This document shows positions 8,783 through 47,801 of a stretch of DNA of 64,000 nt, one piece after another. Under the pieces are notes generated by a model, which made no database searches, was not told the DNA's origin, and saw only the letters and a program-made list of their open reading frames with translations. Numbering within the stretch: the stretch's first letter is position 1; each line of letters opens with the position of its first letter. Source of the DNA: Chryseobacterium arthrosphaerae (lineage in GTDB: Bacteria; Bacteroidota; Bacteroidia; Flavobacteriales; Weeksellaceae); contig NZ_MAYG01000012.1 in the NCBI RefSeq assembly GCF_001684965.1, positions 620,001 to 684,000 on the forward strand, in the 5' to 3' direction. The position numbers were made by a program, and so were the translations under genes.

Positions 8783-8854
8783 AAAACTTAAGTGCCTTCT
8801 TATACATACAGCATTTCACTTAAATAAACTTAAGTGTTAAAACTTATGTGCCTT
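8783..8854. repeat. pair of 16-bp direct repeats
   Basis: AAAACTTAAGTGCCTT (8783-8798) recurs at 8839-8854 with one mismatch (ACTTATGTG), and ACTTAAGTG also occurs between them near 8829-8836. They lie in the leader region of the MbnP operon and could be operator half-sites or a short dispersed repeat. Confidence 0.35.
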
Positions 8855-8916
8855 TGGTGGTTAAAAAACAACGCTGTTACAGCAATTCAAAATCAATTCA
8901 ACTTAAAAAATCAACA

Positions 8917-9747
8917 ATGAAAATTTATAAATTTTTATCACTATTCTTTATTGCCTTTACTTTGTTCACCGTATCATCCTGTGATAGCAGCAGGGATGAT
9001 GAAAATCCGCAGGATACCACGCCGGGAAATATTCAGATCAAATTTGAAAACGGGTTTAATAATCTGGGAAATATCGTTTTAAACCAGACGGTACAGACTT
9101 CCTCAAAGGGACAAAAGCATAATTTCTCTTCCTTAAAATATGTCGTAAGTAATATCACCCTGATCGATGAAGGCGGAAATGAGTTCAGATACAATGAAAA
9201 CAATCCTGATAAAGGAGCTTTTATCATAGACCAGGCAGATGCGGTTGCCGGAGTGGTGTATCTGAATTTAGACGGAATTCCGAAAAATAATTATAAGAAG
9301 ATCAGATTCGGATTGGGAGTCAGCCAGAAAGCGTATCTGCTGGGCCAGGACGGACAGGCAGAATTCTGGACCAAAGCCAAGCAGAAAGGAATGTCATGGT
9401 CATGGGCTGCAGGGTATGTGTTTGTAAAACTTGAAGGAAAATACGGTGCGGATTCAGCAGCTAAGGAATTTATGAATCATACGGGAAACATGGGAAATAC
9501 AGCAGCCAATAATACCCCGGATCTATACCGTGAGATTACGTTGAACCTCCCGGTTACCGCAAGAGTTACCGGAAAGATCAGGCCTTCCATTCATATCCTG
9601 GCAGATCTGAATCAGTTTTTAAGTGGTGATAAAGCTCTTACCCTTACATCAGCCAATGATATGATGATGGGGTCCAGCCAGCATCTTGTAGATGTCACCA
9701 ATAACCTTACCAAGATGTTTAAAGTAGATCACGTTCACAATGATTAA
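8917..9747 (+). CDS. MbnP-family copper-binding lipoprotein
   Basis: MbnP proteins are periplasmic copper binders, related to MopE/CorA, whose copper site can include a tryptophan oxidised to kynurenine by the di-haem enzyme MbnH. I chose ATG 8917 (276 residues) because it gives a clean lipoprotein signal with C22 (FTVSSC); the upstream extension to 8848 has no signal character. The domain runs from about residue 38 (IQIKFENGFNN) to 255. The segment with W151, W161 and W163 followed by AAGYVFVKLEG is the likely site region. The C-terminus is HVHND. It overlaps the MbnH gene by 8 bp, which strongly supports a functional pair. Confidence 0.85.
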   Translation: MKIYKFLSLFFIAFTLFTVSSCDSSRDDENPQDTTPGNIQIKFENGFNNLGNIVLNQTVQTSSKGQKHNFSSLKYVVSNITLIDEGGNEFRYNENNPDKGAFIIDQADAVAGVVYLNLDGIPKNNYKKIRFGLGVSQKAYLLGQDGQAEFWTKAKQKGMSWSWAAGYVFVKLEGKYGADSAAKEFMNHTGNMGNTAANNTPDLYREITLNLPVTARVTGKIRPSIHILADLNQFLSGDKALTLTSANDMMMGSSQHLVDVTNNLTKMFKVDHVHND

Positions 9748-10789
9748 TTTTTCAATTAAAATGATGCTGGCTGTGCTCATGATACTTTTAGGCTGTATTT
9801 CCTGTTCTGATGAGGTTATACAGCCGCTGGAGAAAGATGAGGCTTACCATTTGCAGTTTCCCGCTTACTTTCCGGAAATGTCTTTTGATCAGTCTTCAAA
9901 CCCGGTCACCAGAAACGGGGTAGAGCTGGGAAGAAAATTATTCTATGAAGGAAGGCTTTCCAGAAACAACACCATCTCATGCGGGTTTTGTCATATCCAG
10001 GAAAATGCTTTTACCCATCATGGTCATACGGTAAGCCACGGTGTGGATGACAGGATCGGGATCAGGAATGCACCCCCTATACAGAATATGGCTTTTTTGA
10101 AAAAATATATGTGGGACGGGGTGATCCATGATCTGAATCAACAGGCAATCAGCCCTATTACAGACGTAAATGAAATGGACAGCTCTATACCTGAAGCCAT
10201 CTCAAAGCTCAAAAATGATCAGAAATATAAAAAACTTTTCAGGGAAGCTTATGGAGATGAAACCATTACAGGAGAAAGGATTTTAAAGGCACTTTCACAG
10301 TTTATGGCCACACTGGTTTCAGCAGATTCAAAATATGACCGGTTCAGGCAGGGGCGGGAGCAGTTTACCCCGGAAGAATCCCAGGGCATGGCATTGTTTA
10401 ATCAGAAATGCGCATCCTGTCATAGTGGAGAGCTTTTTACAGATGAAAGCTTCAGAAATACGGGAATGTATTACAATACTGAGTTTAAAGATGCGGGCCG
10501 CTACCGGGTCACCCTTGATCAGGCTGACTGGATGAAGTTCCGGGTTCCAAGCCTGAGGAATATAGAATATACCAAACCTTATATGCATGACGGAAGATTT
10601 TATACCCTGGAAGCAGTCCTCAATTTCTATTCGGATCATGTGGAAGATAATCCAAACCTTGATCCGCAGCTGAGACAAAACGGACGTACGGGAATTGCAA
10701 TGAACAGCCAGGAAAAACAGCTGATCATAGCTTTCCTGAAAACACTGTCCGATAAAAGCTTTATATCCAATCCAAAATTTGCAGAATAA
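9740..10789 (+). CDS. MbnH-like di-haem cytochrome c peroxidase-family lipoprotein
   Basis: The 349-residue protein belongs to the bacterial di-haem cytochrome c peroxidase/MauG superfamily. Two CxxCH haem motifs are present, CGFCH (C81, C84, H85) and CASCH (C224, C227, H228). The N-terminus has a lipoprotein-like signal with Cys at 19 and 22. Its 8-bp overlap with an MbnP gene marks it as the MbnH type, which oxidises a tryptophan in MbnP rather than acting as a simple peroxidase. This assignment follows from family and context. The next gene starts at the base after the stop codon. Confidence 0.88.
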   Translation: MINFSIKMMLAVLMILLGCISCSDEVIQPLEKDEAYHLQFPAYFPEMSFDQSSNPVTRNGVELGRKLFYEGRLSRNNTISCGFCHIQENAFTHHGHTVSHGVDDRIGIRNAPPIQNMAFLKKYMWDGVIHDLNQQAISPITDVNEMDSSIPEAISKLKNDQKYKKLFREAYGDETITGERILKALSQFMATLVSADSKYDRFRQGREQFTPEESQGMALFNQKCASCHSGELFTDESFRNTGMYYNTEFKDAGRYRVTLDQADWMKFRVPSLRNIEYTKPYMHDGRFYTLEAVLNFYSDHVEDNPNLDPQLRQNGRTGIAMNSQEKQLIIAFLKTLSDKSFISNPKFAE

Positions 10790-11749
10790 ATGAGAGAAAA
10801 CATGAAGAAGATAATATTGATAATATGCCTGGTCTTATTTAACCTGAATAAGGCCAATACCGTAAGAGACAGTATTTATATTACTCCTGAAAGCTATAGC
10901 AGGATCAGTTTTTATGATGATTGTGATGCCTGTGGTTGTGCTGCAGGAAACGGGTCATCCGGTTTTGAATCTTTACTGAACCCACAATTTATAGGAGTCA
11001 AATATTTTGCACAGCATTATAAGGCCAAAGAGAATTTATTTGTCAAAGACCTCACTCAGGATCAGTATTTCAATACACTGCAGATCTGGGGTAAAATTCC
11101 GGTGACGGAAAAACTGAGTGTATATGCCAGTCTGCCATTTCATTTTCACGAAAAAAAGACCACGCAGGGCGATATCAGAATCAATGGAATCGGTGACCTG
11201 AATCTGATGGGAATTTACAGGCTGGTGAAGTCAGGGGATAATTTCCATCAACTGAGCGGAGGCCTCGGCGTGAAAGTGCCTCTGGGTAAATTTGATGAAA
11301 AAGGAATATCAGGCGTCAACCCGAGCTTTCAGTTGGGAACAGGCAGCTGGGATTATCAGGCAGCTTTGAACTATAAATTTCAAAAAAATAAAATAGCCGT
11401 ATTGATCAATACCGATTACACCATTAAAACTGAAAACAAAAAACATTACCGCTTCGGAAACCAATGGAATTATGCAGCCACCGGTTTCTATCAGCTCTCA
11501 GGAAATGAAAAAACCATATTTTCTGCTAAAACCGGGCTTCAGGGGGAAGTGTATGCACAGAATAAACAGTTTGGGGAAGGCTTGCCCAATACTGCAGGAA
11601 GTGCATTATATGGAAAACTGGGATTTGAAGCCTCTTATAAAAGGTTCAGCCTGGGAAGTGAAGTGATGCTCCCGTTATATACCCATCTTGCCGGAGGAGA
11701 CATTGAGGCAAAATCAAGGTTCAGCGTGTTCCTGAATATTGGAATATAA
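10790..11749 (+). CDS. outer-membrane beta-barrel protein with N-terminal CxxCxC motif
   Basis: The 319-residue protein has a signal peptide (about 1-23). Its body alternates short amphipathic beta strands with turns and ends with an aromatic/hydrophobic strand (RFSVFLNIGI), typical of a transporter-type outer-membrane beta-barrel. Just after the signal peptide sits DDCDACGCAAGNG (C45, C48, C50), a compact candidate metal site. It abuts the MbnH stop directly, so it is the third gene of the MbnP-MbnH operon. Its role is unassigned; an outer-membrane route for copper or a copper ligand is a reasonable guess. A weaker alternative start is ATG 10802. Confidence 0.75.
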   Translation: MRENMKKIILIICLVLFNLNKANTVRDSIYITPESYSRISFYDDCDACGCAAGNGSSGFESLLNPQFIGVKYFAQHYKAKENLFVKDLTQDQYFNTLQIWGKIPVTEKLSVYASLPFHFHEKKTTQGDIRINGIGDLNLMGIYRLVKSGDNFHQLSGGLGVKVPLGKFDEKGISGVNPSFQLGTGSWDYQAALNYKFQKNKIAVLINTDYTIKTENKKHYRFGNQWNYAATGFYQLSGNEKTIFSAKTGLQGEVYAQNKQFGEGLPNTAGSALYGKLGFEASYKRFSLGSEVMLPLYTHLAGGDIEAKSRFSVFLNIGI

Positions 11750-11856: not shown

Positions 11857-12001
11857 GATTGGGGCATAAAGTTAAATATAATGACCGGTGCAGACAGTGA
11901 TTTTCATCGTTTTATTTCTTTATTAAAACCGTTTTTTACAGCCTTCTGATATATAATATTGTAAATCATTTTGTTGATAACAGGATATAGCAATAATTTT
12001 C

Positions 12002-12009
12002 TATCTTTG
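12002..12009 (+). promoter_or_regulatory. -7 promoter box of the cobalamin operon
   Basis: TATCTTTG matches TAnnTTTG and would place the transcript start just before the riboswitch. The nearest TTG triplets (11971-11976) are about 25 bp away, longer than usual. Confidence 0.5.
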
Positions 12010-12013
12010 CCGG

Positions 12014-12172
12014 AGTTTGGTGAGCCGTAAAAAGCTCTTAAAAGGGAATCCGGTGAAAATCCGGGACAGACCCGCTGCTGTAAGCTCCGCACCAAAGTTT
12101 TTGAAGAATATATCCACTGTTTTTTAATGGGAAGGATTTCAAAAATGGAGTAAGTCAGAAGACCTGCCAGAA
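12014..12172 (+). promoter_or_regulatory. cobalamin (B12) riboswitch
   Basis: The leader shows the conserved cobalamin aptamer landmarks in order: a GGTGAGCC-like first stem, AAAAGGGAATCCGGTGAAA, TCCGGGACAGACCCGC, CTGTAAGC, and the B12-box element AGTCAGAAGACCTGCC near 12154-12169. It lies upstream of a BtuB-like receptor gene and should shut the operon off when cobalamin is plentiful. The expression platform is probably between 12170 and the start codon at 12298. Confidence 0.95.
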
Positions 12173-12297
12173 AAATTAAACGTTTGACGCTTTCGTGGAA
12201 TAAAGCTTAGGACACCAATGATTCTGTGCAGTGACTGCTGTGCTTTGTCGTTGCGTTCTTATATCCATTAGCGTCATCATTATCCCTGAATGAGCTA

Positions 12298-14334
12298 ATG
12301 GTGGCAAAACTGATTACATCTCAATTTCATAAAATTGTTTTCACCGCTTCGGTGTTAACCTCTCACTTTTTGTTTTCCCAAACAAAGAAAAAAGACACTC
12401 TGGATGCAGAGACCATTAAGGTTATCAGTCTCTACAAAAAGAATTTTAAAGAAATTATTCCTGCTCAAATCCTACAGGGAGAAGAACTTGAAAGGCTTAA
12501 CAGTCATTCTGTAGCGGATGCGCTGCGGTATTTTTCAGGAGTCCAGATCAAAGACTATGGAGGTATCGGAGGCTTAAAAACCATCAACATCCGCAGCATG
12601 GGAAGCCAGCATGTGGGCGTATTCTATGATGGGATCCAACTGGGGAATGCACAAAATGGCCTTGTTGACCTGGGAAGGTATTCGTTGGATGACCTGGAAG
12701 AAATATCGCTGTACAACGGGCAGAAAAGTGAAATTTTTCAACCCGCAAAAGATTTCGGTTCATCAGGATCAATCTATCTGCAGCCTAAAACACCTGTATT
12801 CAAAGGAAACAGGAAAACAAATCTGGTCATAAGGGCAAAAAGTGCTTCCATAGATCTTTTCAACCCTTCATTCCGCCTGGAACAGAAAATCTCAGACAGG
12901 ATTTCCTCAAGTTTCAGCGGAGAATTTATGCAAAGTGACGGAATTTACAGATTCCGTTACGCCAAAAAATACCCTGACGGGCAGCAGGCTTATGATACAA
13001 TTGCCAGGAGACAGGATTCGGATATTAAAGCCAAACGTTTTGAAACTTCTGTCAATGGAATATTCAATAACGGAAGCTGGAATGTAAGAGGGTACGGGTA
13101 TATTTCAGACCGTGGAATGCCTGCACCTATTGTTAATGGGCGCTTTGGAGGCCGGGGAGCAAGACTTTCGGATGAAAATTATTTCGTACAGGCCCATCTG
13201 AGAAAAAAGCTGTTCCCAAAATTTGAAACCCAGCTGAAAGCAAAATTTGCCTACGATTATACCCATTTCATGGATACCGTTCGTTCGCAATCTATCATTT
13301 ATACGGATAATGTCTATATTCAAAGGGAAGTATATCTTTCTTCTTCCAATATCTATTCTATCACTCCGAATTGGGATGTCAGTCTGAACGGAGATTTCCA
13401 GTACAATAATCTGGATGCCAATCTGGACAATTTCTCTTATCCTACCCGTTATACAACATTAGTAGCCTTGGCAACCACATACCAGTGGAACAGGTTTAAA
13501 ATTCTGGGAAGCCTTTTGGGAACATTCACTTTTGAAGAAGTAGAAAAGAACAAAAGACCCGGAGACAGAAGAGAATGGACGCCTGCTGTATTTATGAGCT
13601 ATCAGCCTGAGATTATTCCTGAGCTTACCCTTAGGGCTTTTTATAAAAAGATTTTCAGACTGCCAACCTTCAATGATCTTTATTATACCAATATCGGAAA
13701 TACGTACCTGAGACCGGAATTTACCAGTCAGTATGATGTAGGGTTTACCTATAGAAAGAACTATAACATCAACAGTTTCTTCAAATTCTTTTATGCTAAA
13801 GTTGACGGCTACTACAATAAAGTACAGGATAAAATTGTAGCGGCTCCCAATGGAAGTATGTTCCGCTGGCTGATGATGAATCTTGGGCTGGTGGAGATCA
13901 TGGGAGCAGATGTGAACGTCCAGACTGAAATGCAGCTTGGAAAAGTAAGATTGAGACCGTTACTTTCCTACACGTATCAAAGTGCGAGAGATATGAGCGA
14001 TCCGGAAGATACGTTCTACCGTAATCAGATTCCTTATACGCCATGGCATAACGGATCATTCAGCCTTATGGCAGACTATAAAGACTGGAGTTTCAATTAC
14101 AGTGCCATCTATGTGGGGAAACGGTATGATGTGAACCAGGATAATATTCAGTACAATTATGTGCAGCCCTGGTATACCCATGATCTGTCTGTTCAGAAGA
14201 AATTCAACTGGGCAAATCATCAGTTTAAAGTGAGCCTGGAGATGAATAATATCTTCAATCAATACTATGATGTAGTGATCAACTATCCGATGCCCGGAAG
14301 AAATTTTAAACTTATTCTAAACTTCACCCTATGA
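12298..14334 (+). CDS. btuB: BtuB-like TonB-dependent cobalamin receptor
   Basis: The 678-residue outer-membrane receptor imports vitamin B12 or other corrinoids using TonB energy. A signal peptide (about 1-28, ending FLFSQ) is followed by a plug domain (about 45-160) with the pattern VADALRYFSGVQIKDYGG, IRSMGSQHVGVFYDG and SLYNGQ, then a 22-strand barrel that ends in an aromatic residue-rich strand (NFKLILNFTL). It lacks the N-terminal carboxypeptidase-like extension of SusC proteins. The B12 riboswitch just upstream makes the substrate assignment strong. Its stop overlaps the next gene by 4 bp. Confidence 0.93.
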   Translation: MVAKLITSQFHKIVFTASVLTSHFLFSQTKKKDTLDAETIKVISLYKKNFKEIIPAQILQGEELERLNSHSVADALRYFSGVQIKDYGGIGGLKTINIRSMGSQHVGVFYDGIQLGNAQNGLVDLGRYSLDDLEEISLYNGQKSEIFQPAKDFGSSGSIYLQPKTPVFKGNRKTNLVIRAKSASIDLFNPSFRLEQKISDRISSSFSGEFMQSDGIYRFRYAKKYPDGQQAYDTIARRQDSDIKAKRFETSVNGIFNNGSWNVRGYGYISDRGMPAPIVNGRFGGRGARLSDENYFVQAHLRKKLFPKFETQLKAKFAYDYTHFMDTVRSQSIIYTDNVYIQREVYLSSSNIYSITPNWDVSLNGDFQYNNLDANLDNFSYPTRYTTLVALATTYQWNRFKILGSLLGTFTFEEVEKNKRPGDRREWTPAVFMSYQPEIIPELTLRAFYKKIFRLPTFNDLYYTNIGNTYLRPEFTSQYDVGFTYRKNYNINSFFKFFYAKVDGYYNKVQDKIVAAPNGSMFRWLMMNLGLVEIMGADVNVQTEMQLGKVRLRPLLSYTYQSARDMSDPEDTFYRNQIPYTPWHNGSFSLMADYKDWSFNYSAIYVGKRYDVNQDNIQYNYVQPWYTHDLSVQKKFNWANHQFKVSLEMNNIFNQYYDVVINYPMPGRNFKLILNFTL

Positions 14335-15464
14335 GAAAACTAAACTTTTATTTTTTATTTCTTGTATTGGCTTTTCTTACTTCATGCCGTACCGATGATA
14401 TCATCGTACGTCAGGAAGTGGTAGAAGGATTACCTTCAGAAAATACCGCAATAAAAGGATTCTACATGTTGAATGAAGGGAATATGGGAAGTAATAAATG
14501 TACCCTTGACTTTTTCGATTATACCAAAGGAACCTATTACAGGAATATCTATGCGGAAATCAACCCGAATGTAGTGAAAGAGCTGGGGGATGTAGGAAAT
14601 GATATCAAAGTCTACGGCAGCAAACTGTATATTGTCGTCAATGTTTCCAACAAAATTGAAGTACTGGATGCCAGAACGGCTAAACGAATTACTTCCATTC
14701 CGTTGCAGAACTGCAGGTATTTAGCCTTCAAAGACGGAAAAGCCTATGCCAGCAGCTATGCAGGACCTGTAGCGATCAATCCCAAAGCCCCTAAGGGAAA
14801 AGTAGTGGAAATTGATACCGCTTCTCTTGCTATTCAGCGTGAAGTTGTCGTAGGATATCAGCCCGAAGATATGGAAATCGTAGGGAATCAATTATTTGTT
14901 GCCAATTCCGGAGGCTATAAAGCTCCCGATTATGATAATACCATTTCTGTAATAGATTTAAACAGTTTTACGGAAATCCGGAAAATAGATGTTGCCATCA
15001 ATCTTCATCACATTAAGAAAGACAATTATGGGGATCTGTATGTGAGTTCAAGAGGAGATTATTATACAGTTCCTTCCAGTTTATATCTGGTAGACGCCGC
15101 AACAGGAATGGTGAAAAAGGACTTCCATCTCGCAGTAAGCGAAATGACGATTGTGAATGATAAACTTTATTTCTACGGAAATGAATTCAATTACAATACC
15201 CACAGCTATAAAAAAACCTTCGGGATCATAGACGTGAAAACCGAAGAGATTATTGCCAACCACATTTTTGATCAGGAATACGAGAATGCGATTAAAACAC
15301 CTTACGGAATCGCAGTTAACCCAATCACAGAAGATATCTATATAACGGATGCCAGAAATTACGTATCCATGGGTTTTGTGTATTGCTTTGATAAAAACGG
15401 GCATTTCAGATGGAAGACAGAAGGAGGGAATATTCCTGCCCACTTCGCTTTTTTATACAAATAA
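14331..15464 (+). CDS. YncE/DUF5074-type beta-propeller lipoprotein (BtuG-like)
   Basis: The 377-residue lipoprotein (FLTSC, C19) has repeated propeller-blade segments such as LYIVVNVSNKIEVLDARTA and LFVANSGG...NTISVIDLN, the YncE-like pattern. In Bacteroides, BtuG is a surface propeller lipoprotein that binds B12 very tightly and partners BtuB. A propeller lipoprotein overlapping btuB by 4 bp under a B12 riboswitch is therefore a good BtuG-like candidate. The functional match is inferred from fold and context; sequence identity to BtuG cannot be judged here. Confidence 0.8.
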   Translation: MRKLNFYFLFLVLAFLTSCRTDDIIVRQEVVEGLPSENTAIKGFYMLNEGNMGSNKCTLDFFDYTKGTYYRNIYAEINPNVVKELGDVGNDIKVYGSKLYIVVNVSNKIEVLDARTAKRITSIPLQNCRYLAFKDGKAYASSYAGPVAINPKAPKGKVVEIDTASLAIQREVVVGYQPEDMEIVGNQLFVANSGGYKAPDYDNTISVIDLNSFTEIRKIDVAINLHHIKKDNYGDLYVSSRGDYYTVPSSLYLVDAATGMVKKDFHLAVSEMTIVNDKLYFYGNEFNYNTHSYKKTFGIIDVKTEEIIANHIFDQEYENAIKTPYGIAVNPITEDIYITDARNYVSMGFVYCFDKNGHFRWKTEGGNIPAHFAFLYK

Positions 15465-15478
15465 TCAAATTTTAAGAA

Positions 15479-16672
15479 ATGAGAAGAAATACCTTTACTT
15501 ATTTAAAAATCGGGGTTTTATCATGCCTTCTTGCAGGAGTGACAGCCTGTAAGCATAATGATGAGGACGAGTTTACATTTAGCGGACTCGATGATTCCTA
15601 TTCTATTGAGCGGTTAAAAGTTCTGACCATTCCTACCAATGCTTCAGGATCCGTTACATGGAGCATCAATGATTCTGTTATCTCCCAGAGTTCAGCGCTT
15701 GAGTTTATCAGCCCGAAGGCAAATGCCTATCCTCTGACTTTAAAAATCAATAATAAAGGAAACGAACAGGTTTACCATTCTAAAATAGTCGTTACCAAAG
15801 AAAAAGTACCTTACAGTAAATATATTGCCAAAGTATTGGATTTTCGGCCTGCTGTAGGACAGTTTATGAATGAAATCCCCGAATATACTCCCGGGAATAC
15901 TGCTGCCAATATGCTTCAGAAAGCGAACGAATCTCTGGTGGGAGGGAACTCTACCATGATCAGTCTGGGAGGCTATGGCGGATACGTTGTTTTCGGTTTT
16001 GATCATACTGTTCCGAATCTTAATGGAAGAGACTTTAAGGTTCTTGGCAATGCATTCTTTGGAAATGATGCCAGTGAGCCGCGTTCAGGATCCTGTGAAC
16101 CGGGAATCATTATGGTGGCCTACGACAGAAACAAAAACGGTAAACCCGATAATGATGAATGGTACGAAATTGCCGGTAGTGAATATTTCAAAAACACAAC
16201 CGTAAAAAATTACAGCATTACCTATTATAAGCCCGATGAAAACAAACCTCCGGTCCCCGGAAGCGAATTCTGGCAGACCGATGTGGAATATATCAAATGG
16301 ACCGATAACCTCGGGAATAAGGGCTTTAAAACAAAAAATACATTTCACGCACAGAGCTATTATCCTTTATGGTTCGCAGATCCTTCTTACAGCTTTTCGG
16401 GGACCAGGCTGGCCAACAATTTTTATGATCAGAACGGTGACGGATCCTATTGGGTAGGAAAATCATATGAATTCGGATATGCAGATAATGCACCGAATAA
16501 CGATGAGGCCTCCAATATCGATATTTCCTGGGCTGTAGACAGCAGTGGAAGGTATGTGAAACTTCCGGGTATCGATTTTATGAAAATATATACCGGAGTC
16601 AACCAGGAAGCCGGCTGGCTGGGTGAAGTTTCCACAGAAGTTGCGGGAGCGTATGATTTACATCTCAAATAA
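15479..16672 (+). CDS. surface lipoprotein of the cobalamin operon, unknown domain
   Basis: The 397-residue lipoprotein (LAGVTAC, C24) has an Ig-like or PKD-like N-terminal domain (about 35-110, with WSINDSVISQSSALEF) followed by a larger beta-rich domain. That domain has motifs MISLGGYGGYVVFGFDH and GNAFFGNDASEPRSGSCEPG, then DEWYEIAGSEY. It starts 14 bp after the propeller gene and precedes the T9SS propeller gene, so it belongs to the B12-regulated operon. I cannot name the second domain; a corrinoid-binding or scavenging accessory role is inferred from operon membership. Confidence 0.75.
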   Translation: MRRNTFTYLKIGVLSCLLAGVTACKHNDEDEFTFSGLDDSYSIERLKVLTIPTNASGSVTWSINDSVISQSSALEFISPKANAYPLTLKINNKGNEQVYHSKIVVTKEKVPYSKYIAKVLDFRPAVGQFMNEIPEYTPGNTAANMLQKANESLVGGNSTMISLGGYGGYVVFGFDHTVPNLNGRDFKVLGNAFFGNDASEPRSGSCEPGIIMVAYDRNKNGKPDNDEWYEIAGSEYFKNTTVKNYSITYYKPDENKPPVPGSEFWQTDVEYIKWTDNLGNKGFKTKNTFHAQSYYPLWFADPSYSFSGTRLANNFYDQNGDGSYWVGKSYEFGYADNAPNNDEASNIDISWAVDSSGRYVKLPGIDFMKIYTGVNQEAGWLGEVSTEVAGAYDLHLK

Positions 16673-16708
16673 TAATTCAACAATACAATTTATTTAATTT
16701 AATAGAAA

Positions 16709-18967
16709 ATGAAAAAGTTTTATGTTTTTATCATACTTTTTCTGTTTGCATGTTTATCAAATGCACAGATAAAAGTTCAGGGTGTGCCCCGAAATGATAT
16801 TTCAGGGATCAGTAAGCTGAATACCACTACGATCAGTTTTTCTGATATTCAGTATTGGGTAGGTTCAGGATCGAACCAGGCTGCTTTTGTGGTACAGTGG
16901 AATGACAGTAAGAATCCTGATGCTCTGGTATGGGGATTTAAATGGGATGGAAATGCCACAGGAGAAGATATGCTGAAAGCTATTGCCAAAGCAGATCACA
17001 GATTATTTACACTGCTTTATCAGGGAACGCAATTCGGATCAGCGGTCGGAGGAATAGGTTTTGACCTGAACGGGCAGAATACCAATGCACTGATCAAAAG
17101 CGGGAATACCACTTATCCCCTGTATCCGGTGAATGGTTTTGTAAATACAACGGCATATGATTTTGACAGCTACACAATTATGGATGCCGCAAATGATCAC
17201 TGGCAATCCGGATGGACTGTCAACGGATACTGGTCTTACTGGGTAAAAAATCCTGCCGATGCAGATTTTGGATATTCTAATGTAGGGGCTTCTTCACGTA
17301 CATTGGAAAATGGCTCATGGGATGTCTGGAATTTTAACGTCGGATTCAATGAAACTCCGGTTTCATCAACAATTACTCCGGTTTCCCCATATGTAACTGC
17401 CACCAACTTTACCAACGGATATTTTTTGGTGAATGAAGAATGGTTTGGCCATACCAACGGTTCTGTAAACTTCATCGACAATAATGGGCAGATCAATTAC
17501 CGTGTATACAGCAATGTAAACAATAACCAGGCTTTCGGAGCAACCACGCAATATGGAACGATCTACGGAGACAAATTCTATTTTGTATCCAAACAGGCTG
17601 CTGACGGAGGAGATACCCAATATACCCCTGGTGGGAGATTGGTAGTTGCCAATGCTCAGACCATGCAGAAAATTGCTGGTTTCAACAATATTGGAGGTGG
17701 TGACGGAAGATCATTTGTAGGAGTGAACGAACATAAAGGATATATCGGTACTTCTACCGGAATCGTACTCTTTAATATCGACAATATGCAGGTAGGTACT
17801 CTGATTGCCGGAACAGGAGGCAGCGGTCAGATAGGAAATATGATCCGTACCTCACAATATGTATTTGCAGTAAAACAAAATGTGGGAATTTTGGTGATTA
17901 ACCCCAATACGGATACTGTAGTAAGTACTATTGCCGGAGGTTTCTACTCCGTTGTTCAGGCTAAAGATGGAAGTGTCTGGGGAATTCAGGAACAGAAGCT
18001 TGTCAATATCAATCCCACTACTTTTGCCACACAGGAGTATAATATTCCTACCACCAAATATTTCGGAGATTGGGGTGCATGGAATGCAGGCAGGTTTACA
18101 GCAAGTAATAAAGAAAATGCTTTATACTGGATCAATTCAGTAAGCGCATGGGCTTCAGGATCACAGATTGTAAGATTTGATGTTACGGCTAAAACATTTA
18201 ATGAAAACTTTGCCGCTATTCCGGGACAGACAGGTCAGTATAAGCAAATTCCTTATGGTGCGGCACTTCGTGTAAATCCTGCTACCGGAGAACTTGTTTT
18301 GAATACAACGGAAAGCGGATATGGGGCTCACTTTCAGAAAAACTGGATTCATACCTACAATATGTCAGGCACTCTTACCAACACCAAAGTTTTGAATGAT
18401 TACTATTGGTTCCCTTCCATAGCAGTTTTTACCAATAATTCGGTTCCTGTTGTAAGCAATACTCTGCCTTCGCAGGTTACAGCCGGAAGTACTACAAGCA
18501 TTGATTTGAAATCCATAGTTTCAGATGCAGATAATATGGAAATATCAGTTGTAAAATCGATCAGATCAAACAGCAATCCTGCGGTAGTTTCTGCTGTGAT
18601 TAATACTGATGATGAACTGGTTCTGTCGCCACTTGCTTCAGGAACATCTGATATTGTGCTTAGCTTTAATTCAAATGGTAAGATTGTGGAGAAAACGCTT
18701 ACCGTGAACAGTACGACATCTACTTTAGCTACTGCTGAAGTTAAAAAACTTGAATTCAGTATCTATCCGAATCCGGTTATCGATATACTTTATATCAAAA
18801 CACAGGAGAAAATCCAGAACGTTTCCATTTATGATGCTTCAGGCAGAACAGTTAATGCACCGCTGAACAACGGCCAGGTCAATATGAGTATGCTGCCAAA
18901 AGGAATGTATATCCTGAAAGCGGTAACTGATAAAGCGGTATATCAGCAGAAACTGATTAAAAAATAA
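16709..18967 (+). CDS. DUF5074-like propeller protein with T9SS type A sorting domain
   Basis: The 752-residue protein has a signal peptide (about 1-19, NAQ). An N-terminal domain (about 20-160; TISFSDIQYWVGSG, VWGFKWDGNATGEDMLKAI) is followed by a YncE-like propeller (about 230-580). A linker domain follows, and then a C-terminal T9SS type A sorting domain (about 680-752) with FSIYPNPVIDILYIK and LPKGMYILKAVTDKAVYQQKLIKK-type ending. It should be exported by the Por secretion system and anchored or released at the surface. As the last gene of the riboswitch operon it probably binds corrinoid outside the cell, which is inference. Confidence 0.82.
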   Translation: MKKFYVFIILFLFACLSNAQIKVQGVPRNDISGISKLNTTTISFSDIQYWVGSGSNQAAFVVQWNDSKNPDALVWGFKWDGNATGEDMLKAIAKADHRLFTLLYQGTQFGSAVGGIGFDLNGQNTNALIKSGNTTYPLYPVNGFVNTTAYDFDSYTIMDAANDHWQSGWTVNGYWSYWVKNPADADFGYSNVGASSRTLENGSWDVWNFNVGFNETPVSSTITPVSPYVTATNFTNGYFLVNEEWFGHTNGSVNFIDNNGQINYRVYSNVNNNQAFGATTQYGTIYGDKFYFVSKQAADGGDTQYTPGGRLVVANAQTMQKIAGFNNIGGGDGRSFVGVNEHKGYIGTSTGIVLFNIDNMQVGTLIAGTGGSGQIGNMIRTSQYVFAVKQNVGILVINPNTDTVVSTIAGGFYSVVQAKDGSVWGIQEQKLVNINPTTFATQEYNIPTTKYFGDWGAWNAGRFTASNKENALYWINSVSAWASGSQIVRFDVTAKTFNENFAAIPGQTGQYKQIPYGAALRVNPATGELVLNTTESGYGAHFQKNWIHTYNMSGTLTNTKVLNDYYWFPSIAVFTNNSVPVVSNTLPSQVTAGSTTSIDLKSIVSDADNMEISVVKSIRSNSNPAVVSAVINTDDELVLSPLASGTSDIVLSFNSNGKIVEKTLTVNSTTSTLATAEVKKLEFSIYPNPVIDILYIKTQEKIQNVSIYDASGRTVNAPLNNGQVNMSMLPKGMYILKAVTDKAVYQQKLIKK

Positions 18968-18997: not shown

Positions 18998-19030
18998 GCC
19001 CCGGCCAATACATTGGCCGGGGCGTTTTAT
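18998..19030 (+). terminator. strong intrinsic terminator of the cobalamin operon
   Basis: GCCCCGGCCAA (18998-19008) and TTGGCCGGGGC (19013-19023) form a perfect 11-bp GC-rich stem with a 4-base loop, followed by GTTTTATT. Confidence 0.88.
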
Positions 19031-19102: not shown

Positions 19103-19891
19103 TTATTTAATAATAATTTTTCTGGAGTAGGTTTTGCCTTCTTTCGTCTTAAGATTCATAATGTAAACACCATCCGGCTGTCTGGTCTCAAATGTATTGG
19201 ATTTGAGTTGGGTGCGGAATACCTCTTTTCCTGAAGTATTGGTCAGAGTAACTTCAGAACCTTCTGCAGGAATATTTTTGTCAAGAGTGATCTGCCCGCC
19301 TTCATGATGTGCCGTAAAGTTGATATACGGATCTTTGTACTGATATCCATAATACACCCTAAGCTCACCACCAAGGCTCAATAGTCCTGCGTTGGCATTG
19401 ATCTTAATACGGTCAAACGGAATATTCATGGTAAGCTCAATCTCCCCTTTGCTCGGATCACCGGCGTTAAGCTTCAGGATATTATTGTTGAGGTTGGTAT
19501 AGTCATTATTCGAAACATCTCCATTGAATGTTTCAATAGATACCCCTCCCAGAACCTGGGCAGTAAGGGGAGTACCATTTGAACCGATCCCGATCACAAG
19601 CTTATTGGTGTTATTATTGATATTGCTGGCAGGAAAGATCAGTGTCTGTTCCGTTCTTGCCAGTAATCCTATGGAAACCTGTAGCGTAGAATAATCGTTT
19701 TCGTTACTTCCTATGGCATTCAGAGGATTCAATACTCCACAGCCGATACAGATGCCGTATACCTGGCTGGTTTGGTTGTTTGCATAAATTTTGGTAATCT
19801 GTGCCGAAGACACAGCACTCATCAGGAACAGGAAAGATGCAGACAGAGCTGCTTTAATTGCATGCTGTCTCACTAATAAATTGTTTTTCAT
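19103..19891 (-). CDS. secreted protein with T9SS type A-like C-terminus (paralog A)
   Basis: The 262-residue protein has a signal peptide (about 1-30, VSSAQ). Its central beta-rich domain contains a CIGCGVLNPLNAIGSNENDYSTL segment, and the C-terminal region (about 195-262) reads like a T9SS sorting domain: ITLDKNIPAEGSEVTLTN, SGKEVFRTQL, GVYIMNLKTKEGKTYSRKIIIK-like ending. It is a close paralog of the next upstream gene at 20097-20870. Each has its own terminator hairpin. The central domain is unnamed; a surface adhesin or lectin-like role is possible but not shown. Confidence 0.75.
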   Translation of the reverse strand: MKNNLLVRQHAIKAALSASFLFLMSAVSSAQITKIYANNQTSQVYGICIGCGVLNPLNAIGSNENDYSTLQVSIGLLARTEQTLIFPASNINNNTNKLVIGIGSNGTPLTAQVLGGVSIETFNGDVSNNDYTNLNNNILKLNAGDPSKGEIELTMNIPFDRIKINANAGLLSLGGELRVYYGYQYKDPYINFTAHHEGGQITLDKNIPAEGSEVTLTNTSGKEVFRTQLKSNTFETRQPDGVYIMNLKTKEGKTYSRKIIIK

Positions 19892-20060
19892 AGGGGTAAA
19901 ATTTTAAGATTTAGTTTTTTGTAAAATTACACATAAATTGATTATGTTAGTTACTTTATTTCAATTTTTGGTGATATTTAAATATTTGTATTATATAAAA
20001 TATATTTATTGTTTTTTATTTAATTTTTGCTTTATTGACTCTTAAATACCCTAAAAAAAA

Positions 20061-20083
20061 CCGGCAGACTTTCAATCTGCCGG
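20061..20083 (-). terminator. intrinsic terminator of the second T9SS paralog gene
   Basis: CCGGCAGA (20061-20068) pairs with TCTGCCGG (20076-20083). The A run at 20053-20060 becomes a T run on the minus strand, so the hairpin serves the gene at 20097-20870. The sequence is nearly the same as the hairpin after paralog A. Confidence 0.8.
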
Positions 20084-20096
20084 CTGTGGATATCAT

Positions 20097-20870
20097 TTAT
20101 TTAACAATAATTTTACGCGAATAGGTTTTACCATCTTTCGTCTGAACAGTCATAAAGTAAATTCCTTCCTGCTGCCTGGTGTCAAATGTTTTTGCTCCCA
20201 GCTTTGTGCGGTATACTTCTTTTCCGGAAAGATTGGTAAGAGCTACTTCAGCACCTTCCAGCGGAATATTGGCGTCAAGGGTAATCTGTCCCGCCTGGCT
20301 GTGAGCCATGATATTGACTAATGGATCCTGGTAAGCGTAATAAATTCTGAATCCTCCTCCAAGGCTCAGCACTCCTCCCGTTAAGCCTATCCTGATTCCG
20401 TCATAGGGTTTTTCAGGTTTGAATTCCACTGTACCTCTGTTAGGAGTTGCTCCCAGCTTAAGAAGGCTTACATCAATTGTTCTGCGGTCTTCATTGGAAG
20501 TTCCGCCATTCATGGTTTCAAGAGTTACCCCACTTAATAATTGTACAGATAAAGGAATGTTGTCTGTCCCGATGCCTACTACCAGTCTCGTATCTGATCT
20601 CAGATCAGGGAAGATTAAGGTTTGCTGGATACCGCCTAATAATGCAGTTCCCAATACCATCGTTGAGTAATCATCCTCATTGTTCCCGATTGCATTGAGT
20701 GGGTTTTCTACACGGCAGCCTAAACATGCTACTCCGAATACCCCGGAGCTTTGGGCGTGGGAATAAATTCTGTTTTGAGCAAATGATAAAGTGCCGGTTG
20801 AGATCAGAAACAAAGCAATGAATGCTGCTTTAAATGAGCGTTGCTTTCTCAAAAGTAAATTAAATTTCAT
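20097..20870 (-). CDS. secreted protein with T9SS type A-like C-terminus (paralog B)
   Basis: The 257-residue protein has a signal peptide (about 1-31, LSFAQ), then SGVFGVACLGCRVENPLNAIGNNEDDYSTM, matching the CxGC...NPLNAIG(S/N)NE(N/D)DYST core of paralog A. The end is a T9SS-like sorting region (SGKEVYRTKL, GIYFMTVQTKDGKTYSRKI). Gene and terminator were evidently duplicated together. The two CxGC cysteines are conserved in both copies. No known domain name can be given; export to the surface by T9SS is inferred from the C-terminus. Confidence 0.75.
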   Translation of the reverse strand: MKFNLLLRKQRSFKAAFIALFLISTGTLSFAQNRIYSHAQSSGVFGVACLGCRVENPLNAIGNNEDDYSTMVLGTALLGGIQQTLIFPDLRSDTRLVVGIGTDNIPLSVQLLSGVTLETMNGGTSNEDRRTIDVSLLKLGATPNRGTVEFKPEKPYDGIRIGLTGGVLSLGGGFRIYYAYQDPLVNIMAHSQAGQITLDANIPLEGAEVALTNLSGKEVYRTKLGAKTFDTRQQEGIYFMTVQTKDGKTYSRKIIVK

Positions 20871-21519: not shown

Positions 21520-21548
21520 AAAAAAGGACTTTCGAAAAAGTCCTTTTT
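21520..21548 (-). terminator. terminator of the rpsT/tRNA-Glu transcript
   Basis: AAAAAGGACTT (21521-21531) and AAGTCCTTTTT (21538-21548) form a perfect stem; read on the minus strand the distal arm runs into a T-rich tract. It directly follows the last tRNA-Glu. Confidence 0.75.
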
Positions 21549-21550
21549 GG

Positions 21551-21622
21551 TAGCCCGTAGGGGAATCGAACCCCTCTTACCAGAATGAAAATCTGAGGTC
21601 CTAACCGATAGACGAACGGGCC
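21551..21622 (-). tRNA. tRNA-Glu (anticodon UUC), copy 1
   Basis: The cloverleaf can be read on the minus strand: acceptor GGCCCGT/ACGGGCT (a G1-U72 pair), anticodon stem CAGA/TCTG with loop TTTTCAT giving anticodon TTC, and T arm GGGGTTCGATTCCCC. It is identical to copies 2 and 3. In this copy CCA happens to follow the discriminator base in the DNA. Confidence 0.93.
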
Positions 21623-21686
21623 CTCTATCTTCCATTACCGAAGTAATGTGTTAGCTTTGTTTTTATAAGTGTCAACTCTTAGTTTG

Positions 21687-21758
21687 TAGCCCGTAGGGGA
21701 ATCGAACCCCTCTTACCAGAATGAAAATCTGAGGTCCTAACCGATAGACGAACGGGCC
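21687..21758 (-). tRNA. tRNA-Glu (anticodon UUC), copy 2
   Basis: The 72 bases are identical to copy 1, with the same TTTTCAT anticodon loop and GGGGTTCGATTCCCC T arm. CCA is not encoded. It is separated by 64 bp from copy 1 and 84 bp from copy 3. Confidence 0.93.
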
Positions 21759-21842
21759 GGTTAGATTGTTTTAAAAGAATAGCTTTTCTACTTTATCTTT
21801 AAAAAACCACTGATTGTATACAGTGGCTTTTCAAGATATCAG

Positions 21843-21914
21843 TAGCCCGTAGGGGAATCGAACCCCTCTTACCAGAATGAAAATCTGAGGTCCTAACCGA
21901 TAGACGAACGGGCC
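21843..21914 (-). tRNA. tRNA-Glu (anticodon UUC), copy 3
   Basis: The 72 bases are identical to copies 1 and 2. It lies 10 bp after the rpsT stop codon on the same strand, so it is likely processed from an rpsT-tRNA transcript. Confidence 0.93.
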
Positions 21915-21924
21915 AGCTATGCTT

Positions 21925-22179
21925 TTACGCTAATTTATTAACGTGTTTTGTCAATTTGCTTTTCAAGTTAGCAGCTTTGTTCTTGTGGATAATGTTTTTC
22001 TTAGCTAATTTATCCAATAAAGCGATAACCTTCGGCAGTTGTTCTGTAGCAGCAGCTTTGTTCTCTTCATTTCTTAGAGCTTTCAATGCTGTTCTAGCAG
22101 TCTTGTGATAATATCTGTTACGAAGTCTTCTAGTTTCGTTTTGTCTGATTCTCTTTAGTGCTGATTTATGATTTGCCAT
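21925..22179 (-). CDS. rpsT: 30S ribosomal protein S20
   Basis: The 84-residue protein begins [20 protein letters not shown], the standard S20 N-terminus; the frame is open 7 codons upstream (to 22200) but that extension is not part of the family. It is Lys/Arg/Ala-rich and all-helical and binds 16S rRNA early in 30S assembly. Three tRNA-Glu genes follow on the same strand within 10-375 bp and share its apparent terminator. Confidence 0.97.
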
Positions 22180-22245
22180 ATCGTTCAAATGTGAGTGCAA
22201 AACTATAAACTTTTTTTTAAACTACCAAATTTATTTTTAAAAAAT

Positions 22246-22566
22246 TTAATTTTCTTCTGATAGATACTTTCTGAGTTTATTTATTGCCTGTTCTATTTTT
22301 AAATTTTCTTGTTCTTTTTCTAATTTTTTGATCGTATTTCCCAGCATGATCAGTGCATTGTTCCATTCTCCAGTGGTATTGGTGAAAGTAAGTCCGTCAA
22401 TTGTTACTTCAAAAGCAACCCTTTCTCCAGTCCTGTAAAGTCGGAAACTGATTTTATCATCTCTGCCTGTAATCCCGTCTTCATTGATTTGTAAATCATA
22501 ACTTTTTGGGTTAGAGTGGATTTTCTTAAAAAGCAATTTCGCTTCTTGTATCTTTAAATCCGGCAT
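22246..22566 (-). CDS. hypothetical protein with C-terminal coiled coil
   Basis: The 106-residue protein is soluble and has no signal peptide. The first part (about 1-75) is predicted beta-rich, with SYDLQINEDGITGRDDKISFRLYRTG; the C-terminal 30 residues are Lys/Glu/Leu-rich and probably helical. A TATATTTG promoter box lies upstream on the minus strand (22675-22682). The next gene downstream is rpsT, 67 bp away. I do not recognise the family. Confidence 0.6.
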   Translation of the reverse strand: MPDLKIQEAKLLFKKIHSNPKSYDLQINEDGITGRDDKISFRLYRTGERVAFEVTIDGLTFTNTTGEWNNALIMLGNTIKKLEKEQENLKIEQAINKLRKYLSEEN

Positions 22567-22674
22567 GATATAAAATTTGGTAGCCTGTAGTCAACTACAA
22601 ACAATGATTTATCAATAATATTTTTCATCTGTGTTGCCATATCCGGGTGACCGATTATGGCTAAAATTTTTTTG

Positions 22675-22682
22675 CAAATATA
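22675..22682 (-). promoter_or_regulatory. -7 promoter box upstream of the 106-residue protein
   Basis: CAAATATA on the plus strand reads TATATTTG on the minus strand, an exact TAnnTTTG match about 110 bp before the ATG. Confidence 0.4.
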
Positions 22683-22873
22683 ATGCTTTTGTCATATATA
22701 ATGGAATACGAATCAATTTTTACAGTAAAAATAAGTGGATTTCTATCACAGCAGGGAGTAATTACCATATTTTCAGAATGCTATAATGCAGCGCTGTTTG
22801 TCATTTTATCAGGGCTGTCATCAGATATTTAATGTATATTCTTTATATTACTGTAAGAGTATCCTGAATAATT

Positions 22874-23053
22874 CTGGACCAGTTGTAAAAGTTGCGGGAT
22901 ACTATTATTTATATTGATGAAAATTGAATTAACGCAAAAGTTTCTATGACCTTATTTCTATTCCTGAAGGTGCAAAGAATGGAATCAATGATTCGTGGAT
23001 ACAAAAAAAATAGTGTACGTCTTATACTGTTCCCCGGTTTTGGGAACCTGATC
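22874..23053 (+). repeat. dispersed repeat family, copy B
   Basis: From CTGGACCAGTTGTAAAAGTT through TTGAATTAACGCAAAAGTTT and CCTGAAGGTGCAAAGAATGG to AATAGTGTAC and the ...TTTTGGGAACCTGATC end, it aligns with copies A and C. Stop codons and indels in all frames show it is not coding now. It fills most of the 565-bp spacer between 22566 and the tRNA at 23132; I see no gene in that spacer. Confidence 0.65.
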
Positions 23054-23090
23054 TATGATTCTGATCGTAAAGAAGAGAAGGAAACAGACA

Positions 23091-23122
23091 TAAAAAAACC
23101 TTTAACGAATCCGTTAAAGGTT
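23091..23122 (-). terminator. terminator of the single tRNA-Glu
   Basis: AACCTTTAACG (23097-23107) and CGTTAAAGGTT (23112-23122) form a perfect 11-bp stem. The plus-strand A run before it becomes a T run on the minus strand, 9 bp after the tRNA. Confidence 0.85.
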
Positions 23123-23131
23123 TTGTAAAGG

Positions 23132-23203
23132 TAGCCTATAGGGGAATCGAACCCCTGTTGCAAGAATGAAAATCTTGAGTCCTGACCACTAGACGAATAG
23201 GCC
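23132..23203 (-). tRNA. tRNA-Glu (anticodon UUC), divergent copy 4
   Basis: Minus-strand cloverleaf: acceptor GGCCTAT/ATAGGCT, anticodon stem CAAGA/TCTTG with loop TTTTCAT (anticodon TTC), T arm GGGGTTCGATTCCCC. It differs from the three identical upstream copies in the acceptor, D and anticodon stems but has the same anticodon. It carries its own terminator. Confidence 0.93.
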
Positions 23204-47544: not shown

Positions 47545-47801
47545 GAGATTAATTTTTAATTATGGTATTAGTTAACTTGCTTACAATGAATAAGGTAAGT
47601 TGAATTACTTATATGCTAAAGTAACTAATTTAATTCATTATAAAAAGAAATATAATTTTAAATTTAAATTTTTTAATAAGTAATATATTGAAATTTAGCT
47701 GATTGAAAAATAAATTGTATATTTATTTCCATATAAAGAGATATAGTAAAGAGGAATCCGAAAATCTTCAAGAGTAGGAGTCAAATTAAACTAAATTAAT
47801 C
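47545..47801. other. 257-bp divergent promoter region between GG-leader peptides
   Basis: Very AT-rich, with several poly-A/T stretches and no gene. A TATATTTA near 47718-47725 is one base off the TAnnTTTG box for the plus-strand peptide. Confidence 0.4.

Follow-up and report, generated by a model that had tools for sequence, protein, structure and literature searches.

The published work on surface capture of vitamin B12 that we found concerns lipoproteins of gut Bacteroides, where a riboswitch-led TonB receptor, BtuB, is directly followed by a propeller lipoprotein, BtuG (PMC10404256, PMC6143338). In Bacteroides thetaiotaomicron, BtuG1 (BtuGH) is one fused protein (PMC10404256), BtuH2 carries three predicted PKD domains and contacts its ligand via Q333, N399, F401, H476, Y510, W511, W577, and L578 (PMC8941943), and the repression of B12 operons under plentiful cobalamin has been measured (PMC12751083). 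The locus described here lies in a window of 64,000 nucleotides, the whole stretch of DNA analysed, from a Chryseobacterium arthrosphaerae genome of 5.05 Mb and 99.94% completeness. It shares with the Bacteroides systems the riboswitch, the TonB receptor and the propeller lipoprotein directly behind it, but BtuG and BtuH are encoded by separate genes, and an extra two-domain protein (gene 4) bearing a tail for the type IX secretion system (T9SS) follows. We consider it fairly likely that the locus is a B12-repressed operon for the capture and import of cobamides, to which gene 4 adds a surface capture layer with its unnamed N-terminal domain (NTD) as a likely cobamide binder.

Some elements of gene 4 have known counterparts. 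A connection of DUF5074 propellers with B12 is already in print, because PF16819 propellers have been reported beside genes of B12-binding DUF4465 proteins; in a cluster of about 900 DUF4465 members, 40% have such a propeller nearby (PMC13398666). Gene 4 shares PF16819 with these propellers and differs by its fusion to the NTD and by its T9SS tail; BtuK of B. thetaiotaomicron operon 1 is a candidate further counterpart. Gene 4 also resembles T9SS type A cargo in its signal peptide and C-terminal type A sorting domain, and in Flavobacterium psychrophilum a TonB transporter is reported to be preceded by a cobalamin riboswitch (PMC9723704). Riboswitches ahead of PEP-CTERM genes have been reported to be of the c-di-GMP and not the cobalamin type (PMC12530212). 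Among the titles and abstract openings listed in searches of a library with few subscription papers, none describes a T9SS cargo protein in B12 capture, the present operon or the NTD; the accessible portions of PMC12578637 and PMC6143338 do not mention a T9SS-exported B12 protein or the NTD.

The BtuB-BtuG-BtuH core and its operon

The first-pass annotation of this DNA had placed four genes under one cobalamin riboswitch, which is confirmed by a full-length match to the riboswitch family RF00174 (Table 1); the start given then, 12014, falls 13 bases inside the aptamer. The proposed BtuB-like receptor (gene 1) indeed contains the TonB plug and barrel domains expected of BtuB. Its score against the NCBIfam model TIGR01779 (TonB-B12) is 115.8 bits, under the equivalog cut-off of 599.7, and it is therefore named only BtuB-like, by context. 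The BtuG-like propeller lipoprotein proposed for gene 2 likewise stands: residues 5-363 match BtuG1 (PDB 8blw, chain B) with an E value of 2.9e-39 and the BtuG2 and BtuG3 chains with E values of 4e-13 to 5e-12 (identities of these PDB chains according to PMC10404256), and DUF5074 (PF16819) is recognized with 62.4 bits at a cut-off of 27.2. As in BtuG, the gene adjoins btuB in a riboswitch locus and its product is a lipoprotein, as read by eye from the lipobox LTSC.

Gene 3 had been thought to contain an unknown domain, and the domains of the two middle genes had been called uncharacterized. This view has to be given up, as both proteins match solved B12-binding proteins, BtuG1 and BtuH2. Residues 113-396 of gene 3 align to the BtuH domain that is fused into BtuG1 (8blw) with an E value of 1.6e-69, and residues 113-394 to BtuH2 (7biz) with 5.8e-43. 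In the 7biz alignment, all eight residues by which BtuH2 contacts its ligand are identical in gene 3, where they are residues 128, 191, 193, 290, 324, 325, 380, and 381 (the chain index being the residue number minus 100, counted by hand). In contrast to BtuH2 with its three predicted PKD domains, the N-terminal part of gene 3 is short; no Pfam domain over its cut-off was found in the protein, PKD_3 reaching 16.6 bits at a cut-off of 26.3. By homology, gene 2 is a BtuG and gene 3 a BtuH, both of known kinds, and both are predicted to bind B12.

The four plus-strand genes are spaced by -4, +14, and +36 bases. Within 12298-18967, the terminator scan of the region returned two plus-strand terminator-like sites (12509 and 13617), both inside btuB, and none at the junction of genes 3 and 4. 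The hairpin following gene 4 has the highest G-C content among the terminator-like sites of the scanned region, of which 13 were found versus 6.0 expected.

A scan of genome contigs with the NTD yielded 202 relatives, the best 80 loci of which were analysed. The gene arrangement is not due to chance: the exact order BtuB-BtuG-BtuH-[NTD+DUF5074] recurs in 72 of these 80 loci and a riboswitch profile matches 78, although the loci stem mostly from one genus and do not represent independent events. The profile was built from 14 confirmed riboswitch copies, 9 of them from these same loci; the two misses are a locus in which btuB runs off the end (L046) and one without btuB on the stretch (L069). 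In the nine loci subjected to cmscan, RF00174 was found upstream on the plus strand in every case. A T9SS tail is present in 71 of the 72 exact-order loci by single-sequence search and in the remaining one (L085) by Pfam, with 33.9 bits. The eight public loci nearest by their NTDs, with 92-98% identity, all belong to Chryseobacterium.

These loci also bear on the idea that gene 4 is transcribed on its own and only incidentally placed in the operon. Plus-strand promoter-like matches do lie near the gene-3/gene-4 junction (16629 and 16657), but the region as a whole holds hardly more of them than chance would give (25 versus 20.7 expected). Because of the conserved order, the short gaps before gene 4 (median of 31.5 bases across the loci, range from -223 to 192) and the lack of a terminator-like site at the junction, this alternative was rejected as highly improbable.

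The N-terminal domain and its link to cobalamin riboswitches

Two features had escaped the first-pass annotation, namely the NTD of gene 4, a separate domain of about 170 residues, and a second riboswitch-led NTD gene in the same genome. The copy of Pfam scanned with gene 4 and five further NTD proteins gave no match for the NTD, also not to DUF4465. Two NTD proteins (P0007 and P0129) are listed with PF28005.1, which may be this same domain; P0007 gave no PF28005 match in the Pfam copy scanned, and the literature search found no paper under that name. Across an alignment of 58 rows, W75, G76, G85, D96, and Y177 never vary, while W50, W64, W79, W175, W207, and R197 are nearly invariant, with the conserved core reading WVGxGSNxA...VWGYRWDG...GYWSYW...GSWDGW. 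With the divergent NTDs of a second phylum added (34 rows), only four columns stay invariant, including a Trp of the GYWSYW motif. The NTD resembles DUF4465/BtuJ in being secreted, in occurring in several bacterial clades, in its link to B12 loci and in its conserved aromatic residues, in BtuJ a tyrosine "halo" (PMC12751083, PMC13398666). It differs from DUF4465/BtuJ in its conserved core; the two may share an ancestor.

Most homologues of the NTD (37 proteins in one search; 198 in another, from 8000 candidates scored, with 120 listed) are secreted proteins that stand alone, and several of them end in PEP-CTERM tails. Plasmids searched with a single NTD sequence gave no match. Among the matches listed, named carriers are Chryseobacterium, Armatimonadota, Desulfosarcina, Syntrophobacteraceae, Blastopirellula, and Gemmata, together with metagenome-assembled genomes (MAGs) of Omnitrophica, Aureabacteria, and Marinimicrobia. 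The tether varies by lineage between lipid, T9SS and PEP-CTERM. In three listed proteins (P0190, P0200, P0211) the NTD co-occurs with PF00404, which we take to be the dockerin domain and which may represent a fourth kind of tether.

Eight of the 80 loci deviate from the exact order. L008 and L069 have broken frames as stored, and L087, treated below, carries the NTD alone; the other five (L080, L082-L084, and L086), from other Bacteroidota, show that the NTD also exists apart from the fusion protein. In L080 (Prevotella) and L082 (Dysgonomonas), BtuB-BtuG-BtuH is followed by separate NTD and DUF5074 genes, both with lipoprotein-type signals as judged by eye. In L083 and L084, a DUF5074 gene is followed by one that encodes two NTDs amid immunoglobulin-like domains; both genes of L083 have a T9SS tail over the Pfam cut-off, whereas the tail of the NTD gene of L084 scores 26.4 bits, just short of the cut-off of 27. 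In L086, the NTD gene directly follows the riboswitch, no BtuB, BtuG, or BtuH was found on the stretch, and the tail match is weak (17.2 bits). At the second NTD gene of the source genome, a minus-strand riboswitch (C1:278787-278974, in the locus C1:277603-278974, L002 and L138) directly precedes a protein of 370 residues that combines a T9SS tail of 58 bits with two weak NTD repeats (E values of 7e-16 and 2.5e-6), and a genome of the same genus (G565) repeats this arrangement with a tail of 51 bits.

A second group of bacteria carries the same association. It is regarded as a phylum distinct from that of the window, because the searches covered 291 genomes of it as a whole group versus 395 sampled from a larger group. 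It is probably Armatimonadota, an assignment based on the protein of one of its loci (L144), the three nearest named relatives of which carry that name; among the matches listed there are six Armatimonadota/Armatimonadetes entries with 42-57% identity, including these three, closely followed by Syntrophobacteraceae with 54%. Thirty-four of the 291 genomes contain the NTD. A match to RF00174 (E<=0.001) is present in 33 of these 34, in 29 of them over the gathering cut-off, and in 31 the NTD lies downstream of the riboswitch on the same contig and strand, at a distance of 221-2596 bp (median 1522 bp). The three genomes without a linked pair either have the riboswitch on another contig (G035, G244) or lack a riboswitch match (G126). 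Counted by riboswitch, 33 of 38 matches (E<=0.001) have an NTD within 2.6 kb downstream versus 0.035 expected under uniform placement, and 29 of these 33 exceed the gathering cut-off; counted by gene, 34 of 37 NTD genes have a riboswitch upstream, with one match row kept per gene (37 of 60, the other 23 being second pieces of the same genes). An initial count with flanks of 1.5 kb, which had found a riboswitch in 9 of 30 loci of this phylum (eight RF00174, one AdoCbl-II), is superseded by this wider scan. The NTD profile had not been selected for proximity to riboswitches, and the association in this phylum is far beyond chance, although the 34 genomes are related rather than independent, which makes a formal probability meaningless.

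One such case is a MAG locus (L087), in which a riboswitch of 129 bits is followed first by the gene of a 229-residue NTD protein with a PEP-CTERM-like tail, identified by eye; homologues of the BtuB, BtuG, and BtuH of the window were looked for on its 14-kb stretch, and none were found. Twenty stretches from 18 genomes of the second phylum often show the succession of riboswitch, pseudopilin-like gene, secreted protein of about 480 residues and NTD, with exceptions. The family of 480-residue proteins matches BtuH with an hhalign probability of 93% over 66 columns only, the best single profile match having an E value of 1.9e-7, and this short likeness to the BtuH core hints at a shared kit of BtuH plus NTD. 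A relation between this family and the NTD itself was considered and dropped (hhalign probability of 0.1%). The pseudopilin-like gene (N_methyl/DUF1559) recurs in the riboswitch-led operons of many loci among L142-L160, together with the 480-residue protein and an NTD protein with a PEP-CTERM tail; a pseudopilin is a surprising target for control by B12.

Gene 4 as a possible capture layer at the cell surface

The prediction of a 752-residue propeller protein with a T9SS type A tail proved accurate, with DUF5074 scoring 385.9 bits in the full-protein scan at the cut-off of 27.2 (the value of a later scan is given in Table 1). The signal peptide ends, as read by eye, with SNA before Q; this AQ site is kept in 65 of 65 orthologues examined and a Cys lies near it in only 8 of the 65, which argues against gene 4 encoding a lipoprotein. 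GldM, the T9SS motor protein and the sole part of the machinery searched for, is present in the genome; together with the signal peptide and type A tail of gene 4, this predicts its secretion via T9SS.

At low cellular cobamide, the riboswitch would permit a single transcript of btuB-btuG-btuH and the gene of the NTD-DUF5074-T9SS protein. Judging from their B. thetaiotaomicron homologues, BtuG would act as a lipid-anchored lid catching cobamide on BtuB, and BtuH as a second lipid-anchored binder handing cobamide over to BtuG/BtuB. The gene 4 protein would cross the outer membrane via T9SS, display its BtuG-family propeller together with the NTD, and serve as a long-reach or polysaccharide-tethered layer passing cobamide on to BtuH/BtuG-BtuB. 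The source genome contains MetH and a MetE behind a riboswitch, and a profile search for CbiC in it gave no match, in keeping with a scavenger for which B12 is an advantage and not a necessity.

Since T9SS cargo may be either released or anchored (PMC10202324) and vesicles of B. thetaiotaomicron deliver cobalamin through BtuJ (PMC12751083), gene 4 might encode a released cobamide carrier, soluble or vesicle-borne, comparable to a proteinaceous "siderophore" for B12. We regard this as somewhat unlikely, as type A tails are described as covalently linked to A-type lipopolysaccharide and thus anchored (PMC9143113), and as the same modules bear lipoprotein-type signals in the Prevotella and Dysgonomonas loci.

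Another alternative is that BtuB, BtuG, and BtuH do the B12 work, while gene 4, regulated together with them, serves as a surface scaffold or vesicle factor without cobamide contact, its NTD being structural or glycan-binding and its role comparable to that of BtuL. Two proteins from B12 operons of B. thetaiotaomicron, BtuL and BtuK2, bound no cobalamin, which indicates that a place in such an operon does not demonstrate binding; early release of vesicles is promoted by BtuL (PMC12751083). In the vesicle proteome of Elizabethkingia, moreover, DUF5074, YncE and cell-surface proteins share one cluster (PMC9431301), and the NTD is found in PEP-CTERM proteins of many groups. A scaffold role is nevertheless unlikely, because NTD genes stand behind cobalamin riboswitches in two phyla, twice in the source genome alone, and in L087 even where no homologue of BtuB, BtuG, or BtuH was found on the stretch.

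The NTD itself is most likely a surface cobamide-binding domain. Several observations besides BtuL and BtuK2 weigh against this interpretation. The NTD profile had no noteworthy match among PDB sequences (a single one at an E value of 1.5), so that no solved relative is apparent by sequence, and the NTD as a divergent BtuH was rejected at an hhalign probability of 0.2%. It is patchy, being present (E<=0.001) in 8 of 395 genomes sampled from Bacteroidota and absent from 4 of the 7 same-genus genomes in that sample, the source genome included in the seven, and is therefore not essential to the genus. As 246 of 291 genomes of the second phylum have the riboswitch, it must precede other kinds of gene there besides the NTD, and of the 38 riboswitches in genomes with an NTD, 5 have none next to them. 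For the propeller, attempts to connect its structural match 9s6c with BtuK or a B12 operon did not succeed. One search with 9s6c matched 13 of 61 genomes, with full-length matches of 26-30% identity; another gave 64 proteins, the close ones mostly of about 455-465 residues and unnamed; a third matched 1 of 295 genomes at 1e-20; and the literature yielded just the known BtuK paper.

The broader proposal, which we hold at roughly even chances, is that the NTD represents a new multi-phylum class of riboswitch-controlled extracellular cobamide-binding domains, sometimes in two copies and anchored by lipid, T9SS, PEP-CTERM or dockerin. In Chryseobacterium, Flavobacterium and their kin, its fusion with a BtuG-family propeller would make a double binder, displayed via T9SS, from which cobamide passes to BtuH/BtuG-BtuB. 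As the tether varies while the riboswitch link persists, the conserved element would seem to be surface ligand capture rather than any one anchor. The first-pass suggestion of an added corrinoid-capture layer in flavobacteria is retained in its first part, an extra surface layer being plausible, whereas the restriction to flavobacteria is too narrow: other Bacteroidota have the modules in lipoproteins or T9SS proteins, and a second phylum has the NTD with PEP-CTERM tails.

Features, surroundings and implications

Table 1. Positions of the features of the operon in the window, with the matches on which they are based.
Feature	Position	Strand	Evidence
Cobalamin riboswitch aptamer (RF00174)	12001-12185	+	cmscan 96.5 bits, cut-off 31.5, E 8e-23, full model 1-189
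BtuB-like TonB-dependent receptor, 678 residues (gene 1)	12298-14334	+	Pfam Plug, TonB_dep_Rec_b-barrel
BtuG-type beta-propeller lipoprotein, 377 residues (gene 2)	14331-15464	+	PDB 8blw chain B, DUF5074
BtuH-type lipoprotein, 397 residues (gene 3)	15479-16672	+	8blw, 7biz; lipobox by eye
BtuH (predicted B12-binding) domain of gene 3	15815-16669	+	contacts Q128, N191, F193, H290, Y324, W325, W380, L381
Predicted exported protein, 752 residues (gene 4): NTD, DUF5074 propeller, linker, T9SS type A tail	16709-18967	+	
NTD of gene 4, unnamed family, residues 42-213	16832-17347	+	conserved W50, W64, W75, W79, D96, W175, Y177, R197, D205, W207
DUF5074 beta-propeller of gene 4, residues 236-575	17414-18433	+	PF16819 389.5 bits; PDB 9s6c E 5e-10
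Linker region of gene 4, residues 576-684	18434-18760	+	PF13629 only, 19.8 bits, below cut-off 23
T9SS type A C-terminal sorting domain of gene 4, residues 685-752 plus stop	18761-18967	+	PF18962 47.3 bits, TIGR04183 52 bits
Intrinsic terminator-like hairpin, 11 pairs (9 G-C), after gene 4	18998-19023	+	

Just upstream of the operon (8848-11749) lie genes for an MbnP-family protein, an MbnH/MauG-like di-heme enzyme and an open reading frame (ORF) of the Phenol_MetA_deg family. Convergent to it on the minus strand (19103-20870) are two proteins of about 260 residues, similar by eye, with T9SS tail matches below the cut-off. Farther downstream, the window contains four minus-strand tRNA-Glu(TTC) genes (21548-23203), three of them within 370 bases, and a DUF805b RNA motif (47748-47780, 39.7 bits).

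Besides the two riboswitches that lead NTD genes, the genome has three more: one before metE, one before a second TonB receptor and one before an ORF of the 4HBT thioesterase family. The last of these is an odd target: a full cobalamin riboswitch of 107 bits (L001:1501-2181; G000:C1, riboswitch at 2360414) stands just before this 127-residue ORF (4HBT, 74.5 bits). The metH profile gives two separated matches (G000:C12:769686-774402), with a TGA inside the 5' match.

The locus extends the BtuB-BtuG-BtuH core from the lipoproteins of gut Bacteroides to Chryseobacterium, Flavobacterium and their kin. It adds an extra layer predicted to be exported by T9SS, and it draws attention to an unnamed domain linked to cobalamin riboswitches across two phyla. 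If the NTD indeed binds B12, this would give insight into how bacteria outside the gut compete for the vitamin, and would suggest a function for many PEP-CTERM proteins that are now annotated as hypothetical.

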